Below the pieces are notes generated by a model that saw only the letters and a program-made list of their open reading frames with translations, made no database searches and was not told where the DNA came from. From Candidatus Sulfopaludibacter sp. SbA3 (GTDB taxonomy: Bacteria > Acidobacteriota > Terriglobia > 20CM-2-55-15), in the NCBI GenBank assembly GCA_945865815.1, contig CAMBFR010000035.1, forward strand, positions 1 to 34,629: a stretch of 34,629 nt of DNA, read 5' to 3'. Below are positions 17,835-21,764 of this stretch, piece by piece (the first letter of the stretch is position 1; each line of letters opens with the position of its first letter). The position numbers and the translations under genes are program-made.

Positions 17835-19004
17835 CTACAGCACGGTCTGGGTCATTACATTCCTGGCGTACTCCCGCGCCCAGGCATCCGCAGCCATGAT
17901 GGCGTCGATCGAATCCGCTCGTTGCAGGTCATGGGCCTGGAGCGTGGCGTCAATAATGCGCGGAATGTCGGTAAACGGAATCTTCCGCTCGAGAAATGCC
18001 CCCACAGCCACTTCGTCGGCGGCATTGAGAACCGCCGGCGCCGTACCGCCCATCTCCAGGGAACTGTAGGCCAGCGAGATGCATGGGAACTTCTGCGGAT
18101 CGGGCGGGCTGAAGTCCAGCCGCGATATCGCAGTCCAGTCGAGGCCAGGCACCTGCGACGGCAATCGCTCCGGATATGTGAGCGCATACTGTATCGGCTG
18201 ACGCATGTCCGCCGTCCCGAGTTGCGCCACAGTCGAGCCGTCTACGAATTCCACCATCGAATGAACGATGGACTGGGGATGGATCATAATGTCAACCTTT
18301 GCCGCCGGCATGTCGAACAGCCACCGCGCTTCGATCACTTCGAGTCCTTTGTTCATCAGCGTCGCCGAGTCAATCGTGATACGCCTGCCCATTTGCCATG
18401 TCGGGTGTCTCAGCGCTTCTTCGGGAGTGATCTCGGGAAATCGCTGGACCGGTGTTTCGCGAAAGGGCCCGCCCGATGCCGTGAGAATCAACCGCCGCAC
18501 TTCACTGTGGCGGCCTGCCCGCAAGCACTGATCCACGGCGCTGTGCTCGCTGTCGACCGGAATGATGCAGGCCCCGCTGGCCCTCGCTGCTTCTTTCAGC
18601 AATTCGCCGGCAAGAACCATCGCTTCCTTGTTGGCCAGCGCGACGATCTTCCCTGAAAGCACCGCGCTGTAGGTCGGCCACAGGCCGGCCGCTCCGACAA
18701 TTCCCGAGACGACGGCATCCACCTCGACGGCAGAAACAATCTGACGAAGACCTTCCGGACCTGTCACCACAGAGGGCACAGAAATACCGAGATCACGGCA
18801 TTTCTTCTGAAACTCATCGACCCGGGCGGCGTCCGCGATCCCAACCACCTCCGGATGAACGGCCGCGGTTTGACTCACAAGACGATCGATTGAGGAAGCA
18901 GCGGCCAGCGCAAATACGCGCAGGCGATCCGAGAGGTGCTCGGCCACACTGACGGTATTCCGGCCAATGGACCCCGTTGATCCGATTATCGCGATTCGTC
19001 TCAT
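17835..19004 (-). CDS. dxr: 1-deoxy-D-xylulose 5-phosphate reductoisomerase
   Basis: A 389-residue enzyme that converts DXP to MEP with NADPH, the committed step of the MEP isoprenoid pathway. The Rossmann motif is IIGSTGSIGRNT. NKEAMVLAGELL, VDSEHSA (metal ligands Asp and Glu), GGPFRETP, HPTWQMGRRITIDSATL and MNKGLEVIEA are all present. The ATG overlaps the cdsA stop (ATGA). Its product feeds UppS, encoded upstream, through IPP and DMAPP. Confidence 0.98.
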   Translation of the reverse strand: MRRIAIIGSTGSIGRNTVSVAEHLSDRLRVFALAAASSIDRLVSQTAAVHPEVVGIADAARVDEFQKKCRDLGISVPSVVTGPEGLRQIVSAVEVDAVVSGIVGAAGLWPTYSAVLSGKIVALANKEAMVLAGELLKEAARASGACIIPVDSEHSAVDQCLRAGRHSEVRRLILTASGGPFRETPVQRFPEITPEEALRHPTWQMGRRITIDSATLMNKGLEVIEARWLFDMPAAKVDIMIHPQSIVHSMVEFVDGSTVAQLGTADMRQPIQYALTYPERLPSQVPGLDWTAISRLDFSPPDPQKFPCISLAYSSLEMGGTAPAVLNAADEVAVGAFLERKIPFTDIPRIIDATLQAHDLQRADSIDAIMAADAWAREYARNVMTQTVL

Positions 19005-19762
19005 GAATTAAAAAGCCAGTAAAGGACAGGCGCAGCGAAGAACAGACTGTCGAGCCGATCGAGTATGCCTCCGTGCCCCGGGAGAATTGAAGAGGAATCC
19101 TTTACGCCGGCGCTTCTCTTGAGAACCGATTCGGCAAGGTCACCAATCTGACCGGCCGCCGCGACGATCGCCGCTACCACGCCGAGCGTCACGGCCGATT
19201 CGCCGAGCCACCACACGCCGATCGCGATACCGGCCACGACACTTGCAACAAGGCCGGCCACAGCGCCTTCCACGGTCTTCTTAGGACTCACGCGGGGCGC
19301 GAGCGCGTGCCTGCCGAAAGCGCGGCCGCCGTAATATGCGGCGGAGTCTCCCGCCCAGATGATTGCGAATAGAAGGATCACGAGCTCGCGCGCGAGCAGG
19401 ACCAGGAAACCGAGCGTGACCGAGCAGTAAACCAGGCCCGCCAGCGCAAACCCCACCCGGCCCAAAGCGGTGTCGAGCCGTCCTGCGAAAACCGAAACGC
19501 CCATGAGAAGCAGCGCTGCAAACGTGATTACCGTTAGAACCCACTCCGGCCCACCGAAGAATGCGATCGTGACGATGGCGCCGGGAACCAGAAACCACCT
19601 TCCGGTGCGATCACCTCCCCGCTTTGCTCCGAGCTCGAGAAATTCTTCAAGAGCGAGGGCTGCAAAGACGGCGACGATAAAGGCGAAGAGCCAATCCGGA
19701 GAATACAGCGTGGCAATCAGGATAAGAGGAATTCCAACTGCCGCGGTCAGGAGCCGCCTCAA
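19001..19762 (-). CDS. cdsA: Phosphatidate cytidylyltransferase
   Basis: A 253-residue integral membrane enzyme that makes CDP-diacylglycerol from phosphatidate and CTP. The CdsA signature is complete near the C-terminus: SVLKRSAGVKD followed by LPGHGGILDRLD. About seven hydrophobic segments precede it. The start codon is TTG (19760-19762). An in-frame TAG lies three codons upstream, at the edge of the fold-back element, so no longer protein is possible. The nearest Shine-Dalgarno-like GAGGG (19773-19777, minus strand) is the terminal sequence of that element. Confidence 0.94.
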   Translation of the reverse strand: MRRLLTAAVGIPLILIATLYSPDWLFAFIVAVFAALALEEFLELGAKRGGDRTGRWFLVPGAIVTIAFFGGPEWVLTVITFAALLLMGVSVFAGRLDTALGRVGFALAGLVYCSVTLGFLVLLARELVILLFAIIWAGDSAAYYGGRAFGRHALAPRVSPKKTVEGAVAGLVASVVAGIAIGVWWLGESAVTLGVVAAIVAAAGQIGDLAESVLKRSAGVKDSSSILPGHGGILDRLDSLFFAAPVLYWLFNS

Positions 19763-19772
19763 AGCGTTCTAA

Positions 19773-20199
19773 CCCTCATCCGGCCCCTTGAGGGCCCTTC
19801 GGGCCACCTTTTCCCGGAAGGAAAAGGACGTACTTAGAGGAGTTTGTCCCTCTCCCTCCGGGAGAGAGTCTGGAGTTTGGACATTTGTCGGAGAGTAGCG
19901 CAAAAACTCCCCTCCTGGATTAGGAGGGGCGCCGTTCGCGCGTTTTTTAGCGAACGGCGGGGTGGTGTACATGCTGCGAAGCCACGCTATAGATATTCGC
20001 GCAGCGCACCGATTTGAATGAGCGCTACGCGAGCATCCATAACGTGGCTTCGCGTCATTCCGTACCACCCCGTCTGCGCCAATAAGGAACGGGACCACTC
20101 CGCTGGTGGCGCAGCCACCCCTCCTAACACAGGAGGGGAGTTTCCAAACTTCAGTCGCTCTCCCTCCGGGAGAGGGTGCCGCGAAGCGGCGGGTGAGGG
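19773..20199. repeat. 427-bp non-coding fold-back (inverted-repeat) element
   Basis: The interval between uppS and cdsA is nearly all one imperfect inverted repeat with a loop near 20008-20020. Matching blocks include 19773-19782 with the end at 20199, 19905-19929 with 20118-20142 (about 23 of 25 bases), and 19956-20007 with 20022-20074. Each arm holds smaller palindromes, such as CTCCCTCCGGGAG and CCCCTCCT with AGGAGGGG. The left arm also has a 9-bp stem at 19931-19958 (GCCGTTCGC with GCGAACGGC). Neither strand carries a credible gene. It resembles a fold-back MITE or composite REP sequence. No target-site duplication is obvious. Confidence 0.8.
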
Positions 20200-20208
20200 C
20201 GCAGCCGT

Positions 20209-20979
20209 TCATTTTGTCCCCGTCTGGACGAGCTGTGGATTCAGTCCGCCGTATCGCCGCTCTCGCTTCTGGAAGGCAATGACGGCTTCGTAAAGGTGTT
20301 GCTTGCCGAAATCGGGCCAAAGCGTGTCGGTAACCCAGATTTCCGCGTATGCAATCTGCCAAAGAAGGAAATTACTGATACGCAGTTCCCCGCTCGTGCG
20401 GATGAGCAAGTCCGGGTCCGGCAGCCCGGCCGTATACAGATACCCGGCAAAGTCCTTCTCGGTAACTCCTCCGGCCTCGGCAGCGCTCTTTCCACCATTT
20501 CGCAGCAGCCGATTCACGGCATCGACAATCTCGGCGCGGCCACCGTAGTTCAGGGCGACATTGAAGATCATGCCCGTGTTCTGGCTGGTCCGGGCAATTG
20601 CCCTCTCTAGTTCGAGTTGCACGGAGCTGTCCAATTCGTCGATGCGGCCGATCGTGCGAAACCGGATGTTGTTCCGGTGGAGCGATTCTATTTCCTTATG
20701 GAGATACTCCTTCAGGAGCTTCATCAGCGTGCGGACTTCAGACTGCGGCCGCTTCCAGTTTTCCACTGAGAACGCGTACAGCGTGAGGACTGAAACAGCC
20801 AACTCGGCGGACCCTTCGACGACTTCGCGGACGGCATTGATGCCGGCCCGATGCCCCGCCACTCGCGGCAGGCCGCGCTTGCGTGCCCAGCGGCCGTTTC
20901 CATCCATGATGATGGCAATATGCACAGGCAAGGCAGCGAGGTCGATCTGTCCGGCGAGACTCTGGGCCTTTTTCGGCAT
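20209..20979 (-). CDS. uppS: Undecaprenyl diphosphate synthase (isoprenyl transferase)
   Basis: A 256-residue cis-prenyltransferase that extends farnesyl diphosphate with IPP to the C55 carrier lipid for peptidoglycan and O-antigen. The catalytic Asp26 lies in AIIMDGNGRWARKRG. LYAFSVENWKRP, NVALNYGGRAEI, DLLIRTSGELRISNFLLWQ and the C-terminal RRYGG are all typical. The frame is open to 21018, but the -10 box TAAGAT lies between the upstream Met codons and ATG 20979, so I use 20979. The next gene downstream, cdsA, is separated by the fold-back element. Confidence 0.97.
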   Translation of the reverse strand: MPKKAQSLAGQIDLAALPVHIAIIMDGNGRWARKRGLPRVAGHRAGINAVREVVEGSAELAVSVLTLYAFSVENWKRPQSEVRTLMKLLKEYLHKEIESLHRNNIRFRTIGRIDELDSSVQLELERAIARTSQNTGMIFNVALNYGGRAEIVDAVNRLLRNGGKSAAEAGGVTEKDFAGYLYTAGLPDPDLLIRTSGELRISNFLLWQIAYAEIWVTDTLWPDFGKQHLYEAVIAFQKRERRYGGLNPQLVQTGTK

Positions 20980-20987
20980 ACGGTTGG

Positions 20988-20996
20988 ATCTTAACA
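20988..20996 (-). promoter_or_regulatory. Extended -10 promoter of uppS
   Basis: On the minus strand TGT is followed by TAAGAT (20988-20993), eight bases before ATG 20979. This predicts a leaderless or nearly leaderless start within the 50-bp truA-uppS gap. Confidence 0.55.
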
Positions 20997-21029
20997 TGCG
21001 CCCCGGCTCAATCTGCACCGCAAACCGGT

Positions 21030-21764
21030 TTAGTACTCTACACTTATCAGGTGCAGCCCGCGTGGGGGCAGGGACGGCCCGGCGCGGCGCCGATCGCGCT
21101 CTTCGAAAATGAGCGGTATGTCTTCCGGACGGATTCTACCCTGACCGGCCTCGAGCAGGGTCCCGGTGATTGTCCGGACCATGTACCTCAGAAATCCGCT
21201 TCCGCGGATTCGAAAAGTCCAGATATCGCTCTTGCGATCCCACGAGGCATCAAATATCGTGCGCACCCTGTTCTCGATCTCAATTGCGGTGGCGCAGAAC
21301 GAAGTAAAATCGTGGGAACCGATAAAGTGGCGGGTTGCTTCGTCAAGAGCTTCCTCGTCGAGCGGTTGTCGAAACGGATGGACATACCGGCAATGAAACG
21401 GGCTTACAACGTGTTCTCGCCAGATTCGATATTCGTACGTCTTTGCCCGGGCCGACCGCCGTGGATGAAAGTCGAGTCCGGCTTCGTCGACTCGAAGGAT
21501 CCGGATCTGTTTTGGCAGGAAGGCGTTTGCGCCGTGCACGACCGCGCCGGTATCAATGGTCCGGATGGTTTCAACGCTCGCAACCTGGGCGTGCGCGTGG
21601 ACGCCGGCGTCGGTGCGCCCGGAACCGATCACGTGGACTTCATGATTCAAGAGCTTCTGAAACGCCACTTGAAGTTCCCCCTGAATCGTTCGCAACTCAG
21701 GCTGGACCTGCCAGCCGTGAAATTCCGTTCCGTCGTATGCGATCGTCAGCTTGAGGTTCCGCAT
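21030..21764 (-). CDS. truA: tRNA pseudouridine(38-40) synthase TruA
   Basis: A 244-residue enzyme that isomerises U38-U40 in the tRNA anticodon arm. The catalytic Asp52 is in GSGRTDAGVHA. IAYDGTEFHGWQVQP at the N-terminus, RRSARAKTYEYRI, IGSHDFTSFC and FLRYMVRTITGTL are all family motifs. Length is normal. It diverges from the glycosyltransferase gene across only 25 bp. Confidence 0.97.
   Translation of the reverse strand: MRNLKLTIAYDGTEFHGWQVQPELRTIQGELQVAFQKLLNHEVHVIGSGRTDAGVHAHAQVASVETIRTIDTGAVVHGANAFLPKQIRILRVDEAGLDFHPRRSARAKTYEYRIWREHVVSPFHCRYVHPFRQPLDEEALDEATRHFIGSHDFTSFCATAIEIENRVRTIFDASWDRKSDIWTFRIRGSGFLRYMVRTITGTLLEAGQGRIRPEDIPLIFEERDRRRAGPSLPPRGLHLISVEY

Follow-up and report, generated by a model that had tools for sequence, protein, structure and literature searches.

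The fold-back between uppS and cdsA

The window, i.e., the whole stretch of 34,629 bp analysed here (Candidatus Sulfopaludibacter sp. SbA3), carries its two first-listed (longest) inverted repeats within positions 19773-20199, which occupy the space between two essential genes, uppS and cdsA, both on the minus strand. The features of this locus, with their basis in brackets, are as follows.

19001-19762, minus strand: cdsA, the downstream gene, with a TTG start at 19762 (sequence)
19773-19869, no strand: outer dispersed palindromic repeat, left part (CCCTCATCCGGCC...), including the left hairpin copy (alignment to repeats of G001)
19847-19869, no strand: left copy of the 23-bp target duplication, TCCCTCTCCCTCCGGGAGAGAGT, 8-bp stem and 3-nt loop (21/23 identical to 20155-20177)
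19870-20154, plus strand: MITE, the mobile unit, 285 bp (at least 40 core copies in the host; alignment of 30 copies)
19870-19885, plus strand: left terminal inverted repeat (TIR) CTGGAGTTTGGACATT, 16 bp, exact (family members and autonomous elements have it at both termini)
19904-19929, plus strand: left REP-like arm in the MITE, AAACTCCCCTCCTGGATTAGGAGGGG (pairs with 20118-20143)
19909-19929, minus strand: terminator-like stem-loop with the tail AGTTTTTGCG, on the operon strand (motif also in most aligned MITE copies)
19971-20058, no strand: central hairpin, arms 19971-20007 and 20022-20058, loop 20008-20021 (inverted-repeat pairing)
20118-20143, minus strand: right REP-like arm in the MITE (pairs with 19904-19929)
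20144-20154, minus strand: right TIR, shortened to 11 bp, CCAAACTTCAG (longer copies, e.g., L024 of 362 bp, as reference)
20155-20177, no strand: right copy of the 23-bp target duplication, TCGCTCTCCCTCCGGGAGAGGGT (comparison with the left copy)
20178-20199, no strand: outer dispersed palindromic repeat, right part, GCCGCGAAGCGGCGGGTGAGGG (alignment to repeats of G001)
20209-21018, minus strand: uppS, the upstream gene, its stop ending at 20209 (orthologue in G001 90% identical)

The initial annotation had seen here one non-coding, 427-bp fold-back element inserted in the operon. Its spacing from the cdsA start and the uppS stop is right, the interval is indeed non-coding, and the long arms lie where they had been placed (19904-19929 with 20118-20143, 92% complementary) and contain the smaller palindromes described. 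Further arms pair at 19848-19881/20143-20176 (82% complementary) and in the central hairpin (81%). All these arms are real, although the similarity of the outer part is partly that of two copies of one duplicated 23-bp hairpin. The large hairpin expected of the minus-strand RNA was also recovered on folding, at -262 kcal/mol versus -171.6 +/- 6.3 in 100 dinucleotide shuffles of the same RNA (z = -14.3), and Rfam gave no match in the window. At the far end of the window, the last letters of the contig (34574-34629) form a perfect inverted repeat of 24 bp around an 8-nt spacer (GCCTGACGGGTGAATTCCCATTTT), which either arose as a fold-back artefact of the assembly or is a repeat at which the assembly halted.

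The uppS-cdsA gap measures 446 bp in the window versus 22 bp in G001, a genome of the same genus in which the orthologous gap is empty, and the two gaps start nearly alike (GCGGCTGCGCC / ACGGCTGCGCC). In other relatives the gap ranges from -4 to 303 bp. From this comparison of gaps we conclude that the 427-bp fold-back is an insertion, as had been proposed. What did not survive was its unity, as there are two nested elements instead of one. The description as a composite MITE/REP holds as well, but one repeat lies within another and the mobile unit comprises only 19870-20154.

The outer repeat, ca. 120 bp in all (19773-19869 plus 20178-20199), matches in relatives as separate stretches of ca. 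100 and ca. 45 bp (BLASTN). When its flanks are joined with a single hairpin copy they give 123 bp, to which repeats of G001 align with 87-90% identity over ca. 100 bp, and there is no gap at the junction when the joined flanks are aligned with the single-hairpin repeats of that genome. Since removal of the MITE restores a gap-free outer repeat, the nesting indicates that the palindromic repeat came first and that the MITE later entered its hairpin, a structure whose quality is matched by 0.15% of random 23-mers. At the end of the outer repeat, GGATGAGGG is likely the Shine-Dalgarno sequence of cdsA, which would thus have been supplied by the inserted repeat. An in-frame TAG lies directly upstream of the TTG start of this gene (19762-19772), and the orthologue in G001 starts with ATG.

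A MITE family in the host genome

Many copies in the host genome had been anticipated for the element, a single-copy sequence counting against it, and were found, with at least 40 places (BLASTN; 193 contigs, 98% complete) matching 19870-20142 of the window at 82-97% identity. An alignment of 30 copies gives a family length of ca. 280-380 bp and the ends CTGRAGTTTGGACATT ... AATGTCCAAACTYCAG. Compared with full-length copies, that of the window is missing ca. 80 bp of subterminal sequence on the right, at ca. 20143/20144. The ca. 80-bp stretch that includes its right REP-like arm (20064-20146) is also found alone in three related genomes (G004, G007, and G010). The family is made of short, non-coding units with terminal inverted repeats, present in multiple copies and flanked by a target duplication (21/23 bp in the window), and their exact 16-bp end is common to transposase-bearing elements of other genomes (L424 and L300). 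These are the properties of a MITE.

We examined the surroundings of 37 copies with a simple coding-potential gene caller in the host genome. All were intergenic, tandem genes accounting for 12 and 9 copies (two orientations), convergent genes for 9 and divergent genes for 7. This intergenic placing may simply reflect where the target hairpins are. Several host copies (L026, L111, and L117 among them) have flanking hairpins that are mutually inverted, not direct, possibly through template switching within a long palindrome.

Transposase-bearing relatives

Full-length elements with the same or similar ends were ca. 1.5-2.0 kb long and encoded an IS701-like DDE transposase. One of them, L300 (MWEH01000064.1), is an element of 1889 bp with perfect ends and two ORFs, one for a HARE-HTH protein of 121 aa and the other for a DDE transposase of 483 aa (Pfam DDE_5; NCBIfam NF049999 IS701_3 at E 3e-44, short of the curated cut-off). 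Another, L424 (G412), is 1473 bp long, has ends exactly like those of the window MITE and carries a 24-bp hairpin, GCCTATGCTTCATGAAGCATAGGC, on both sides, and in L399 (G042; ends CTCAAGTTTGGTCCTTT) a 33-bp hairpin, GCGTATGGAATGACCTTGGGTCATTCCATACGC, is duplicated. The genome G197, assembled in three contigs, contains four copies of 1888 bp with ends CTGGAGTTTCTACATT and transposases 99-100% identical, each with its own duplicated hairpin (GGTTGGGCGGAGACCCAACC, GCGGCTGGCGTGCCAGCCGT, CCCCCCGGCATCGCCGGGGGC, and CCCCCGCCCACTGGGCGGGGC). The small partner ORF codes for a HARE-HTH protein in L300 and L399, for one just below the cut-off of that model in L395 and for DUF6788 in L425, and was not seen in L424.

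The transposases align over nearly the full length of NF049999 with E values of 1e-39 to 1e-45, although their scores (136-157) stay below the cut-off of 170. The conserved columns include the acidic residues D95/D96, D214, and E354 (L424 numbering), a putative catalytic triad. Homologues were detected by tblastn in 12 of 399 genomes and, with a second query, in 26 of 237 genomes of one family. None was detected in the host genome, and the only trace in the family of the host was a fragment in G007. Relatives of the L300 transposase were not found in plasmids (E 1e-20), nor those of L395 in phages or of L424 in viral contigs, and PDB contained no meaningful match for the transposase alignment. 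Two candidate autonomous elements were discarded: a pair of end-like sequences 3.3 kb apart in the host (G000:C3), with ordinary genes inside and no transposase, and a locus in G003 with no second end within the 3.2 kb examined. In G003, a 539-aa protein with no Pfam or NCBIfam match is encoded beside a perfect CTGGAGTTTGGACATT end (L217:957-2576), adjoined by a four-helix-bundle gene (PF05635; L217:2640-3011).

Hairpins at the insertion sites

A search of 399 genomes of the class for the exact 16-bp end gave hits in 16, versus a single genome for the reversed control pattern, and the terminal repeat is also present in other acidobacterial families and in other phyla. An 18-bp version gave 110 stretches in the GTDB genome collection, with record titles (MAGs) naming Acidobacteria, Verrucomicrobia, Cloacimonadota, Chloroflexi, and others; chance may account for a few of the matches. 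Six contigs of G011 (Terriglobia; C16, C17, C48, C70, C71, and C75) end 48-106 bp inside such an element, so that this genome probably has intact high-identity copies that were left unassembled.

In the host, the flanks are often copies of a palindrome, GGGCGCGGGGCTTCAGCCCCGTGCCC, the core of which is found ca. 100 times in the genome. One copy (L016) is located in TAGCCGCGGGC...GCCCGCGGCTA and that of the window in CCCTCTCCC...GGGAGAGGG. The flanks are GCGGGCTAAAGCCCGC in G006, GGCGGTCTATGACCGCC-like sequences in G007, and TCCCCTCCTCAAAGAGGAGGGG and TCCCCTCCTTAYGAAGGAGGGG in G009, where each pair has its own loop in common.

Among 159 distinct TIR ends, a hairpin with a stem score of at least 6 abuts 52% and 56% (two sources) versus 2.1% and 2.5% of control positions taken from the same loci, and for scores of at least 8 the values are 32-37% versus 0.2-0.5%. 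Ca. 45% of the ends have no scored hairpin, a figure that includes chance 16-mer matches and decay; probably some of the end matches, the weaker ones especially, are fortuitous. There were 10 distinct full-length insertions whose flanks match, and in every one of them the duplicated target is a hairpin, 19-33 bp long and different in sequence from the others. In a table of 17 duplications, which takes in MITEs and the window copy, the base of the stem is 0-2 nt from the cut sites, both sides are alike in 15, and equally good hairpins are found in 0 to 0.85% of random stretches. In older copies the duplications have diverged (e.g., to the 21/23 of the window), and some insertions (L300, L396, and L409) are flanked by two different hairpins, which recombination between copies could explain.

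Comparison with known mobile elements

The present elements resemble the IS701 family (IS4-related DDE insertion sequences) in a transposase that aligns with the IS701_3 model, if below its cut-off, in the DDE_5 domain of some members and in their related ends (CTSGASTTTGGMCAT). However, almost all IS701 elements make a 4-bp duplication (PMC2266710), whereas here it has the length of a hairpin, 19-33 bp, and most of the full elements read carry a second small ORF (HARE-HTH or DUF6788). Alphaproteobacterial IS701-like relatives, with transposases 25-28% identical and similar ends (CTCGACTTTGGCCAT, CTCGACTTTGTACA), showed a 5-bp duplication (CTNAG-like or CTGAT) and no flanking hairpin at four of six loci, the other two being less clear; these duplications of ca. 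5 bp agree with the 4 bp of the literature on IS701. In the open-access literature we found no IS701-like element described as duplicating its target hairpin, although an earlier description elsewhere is possible.

Stem-loops of unrelated sequence are also the targets of IS1272, an IS1182-type element with 16-bp ends in one model, which replaces the stem-loop and makes no duplication; duplication of the whole stem-loop was drawn as an alternative pathway b (PMC5678879). The present elements keep the stem-loop and duplicate it on both sides, as in pathway b, and their transposase matches IS701-type models and not IS1182. Long target duplications (16-28 bp) are shared with the IS1202 group, which has no recognised target and described ends that start with 5'-TGT (PMC10132070). 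We considered this identity and dropped it because of those ends, as the present ones start with CTGGAG and the target is a hairpin. The SMR-A of Haloquadratum are likewise short and non-coding, have terminal repeats and enter palindromes, in their case those of other mobile elements (PMC3119063). However, SMR-A have neither a target duplication nor a known transposase. The PATEs of the same organism, which are IS605-related and devoid of terminal repeats, were discarded. We know of no whole-hairpin duplication among REPINs/BIMEs or the insertion sequences that target REPs, and their enzymes differ from the present transposase. Like the elements described here they are made of, or inserted in, intergenic palindromes (PMC3116915; PMC8450116).

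Origin of the fold-back

The explanation that we favour, with a probability of about 0.87, is that a non-autonomous MITE of an IS701-like DDE family was inserted into the 23-bp hairpin of a palindromic repeat already present between uppS and cdsA, in an event directed by structure and mobilised in trans, and that it is now a passenger. The sequences themselves show that the terminal repeats are shared, that the element has spread in many copies, that empty sites exist and that the duplications coincide with hairpins and vary with hairpin length. As to the mechanism, the transposase would recognise an extruded hairpin or cruciform by its shape, the 3' ends of the element would be joined to the stem at its two feet, and the whole hairpin would then be copied to both sides by gap repair. 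The feet are adjacent in the extruded shape, so the usual short stagger across the junction would amount to a whole-hairpin duplication in linear DNA. Since the host genome has no detectable homologue of the transposase, we infer that the window copy was mobilised in trans by an enzyme since lost from this genome.

Two inverted REP-like arms inside the MITE, the ca. 80-bp arm unit found alone in relatives and one Y1/RAYT-like gene in the host (G000 C55, L108:1839-2639) are also what would be expected of a REPIN or BIME, in which REP palindromes are moved in pairs by a Y1 tyrosine transposase of the RAYT type and there are neither terminal repeats nor a target duplication. We consider such an origin improbable, as REPINs lack both the DDE-type terminal repeats and the long duplication that the mobile unit shows, the partial copies resemble truncations of a larger MITE and not a free inner unit, and the Y1 gene scores 62.6, below the NCBIfam RAYT cut-off of 80. 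Even a little less credible to us is a selected regulatory RNA or attenuator (a terminator, an RNase III site or an mRNA stabiliser) that would derive from repeats only by chance. Its absence from the orthologous gap of the same genus and from other relatives, the occurrence of family copies in all gene arrangements and the failure to find a sigma-70-like promoter in 19000-21100 argue against it, in spite of the very stable RNA fold, the terminator-like stem with five T on the operon strand and the Shine-Dalgarno-like sequence that the outer repeat supplies at the TTG start of cdsA.

The flanking hairpins might, on the other hand, belong to the element as its own palindromic ends and not be a duplicated target, given that palindromes flank most of the family members examined. 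Yet the four nearly identical elements of G197 have four unrelated hairpin pairs, and the window hairpin is part of an outer repeat that exists without the MITE. We take these comparisons to refute this last reading, the least probable of the three, unless the ends were exchanged at each jump.

Effect on the operon and wider meaning

The initial annotation suggested that the hairpin could terminate transcription, protect the RNA or serve as an RNase site. We found one weak terminator candidate on the operon strand (19929-19909, with five T). The 37 copies all lie between genes and show no clear preference for one orientation relative to them, as would be expected of a passenger more than of a conserved regulatory element. 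Their placing suggests that a transcriptional role was neither strongly favoured nor strongly disfavoured by selection. A role of the fold-back in mRNA control is weakly supported, and the likeliest status of the window element is that of a tolerated passenger, carried in the operon mRNA with what would be a mild effect at most.

Beyond this locus, we believe it quite likely that a widespread DDE lineage picks hairpins or cruciforms purely by shape, inserts at the feet of the stem and duplicates the whole hairpin whatever its length, its MITEs landing in the intergenic REP-type palindromes of their hosts and building nested fold-backs. Each transposase family is usually credited with a nearly constant length of target duplication, and here the length seems to track that of the hairpin (19 to 33 bp in the cases read). 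A structure-directed model predicts just this, and for IS1272 it had been put forward as no more than an alternative pathway. Should the reading be right, we would have a DNA transposase that recognises its target by shape, perhaps a probe for the sites of cruciform formation in living cells, and a simple account of the nesting in intergenic fold-back repeats.
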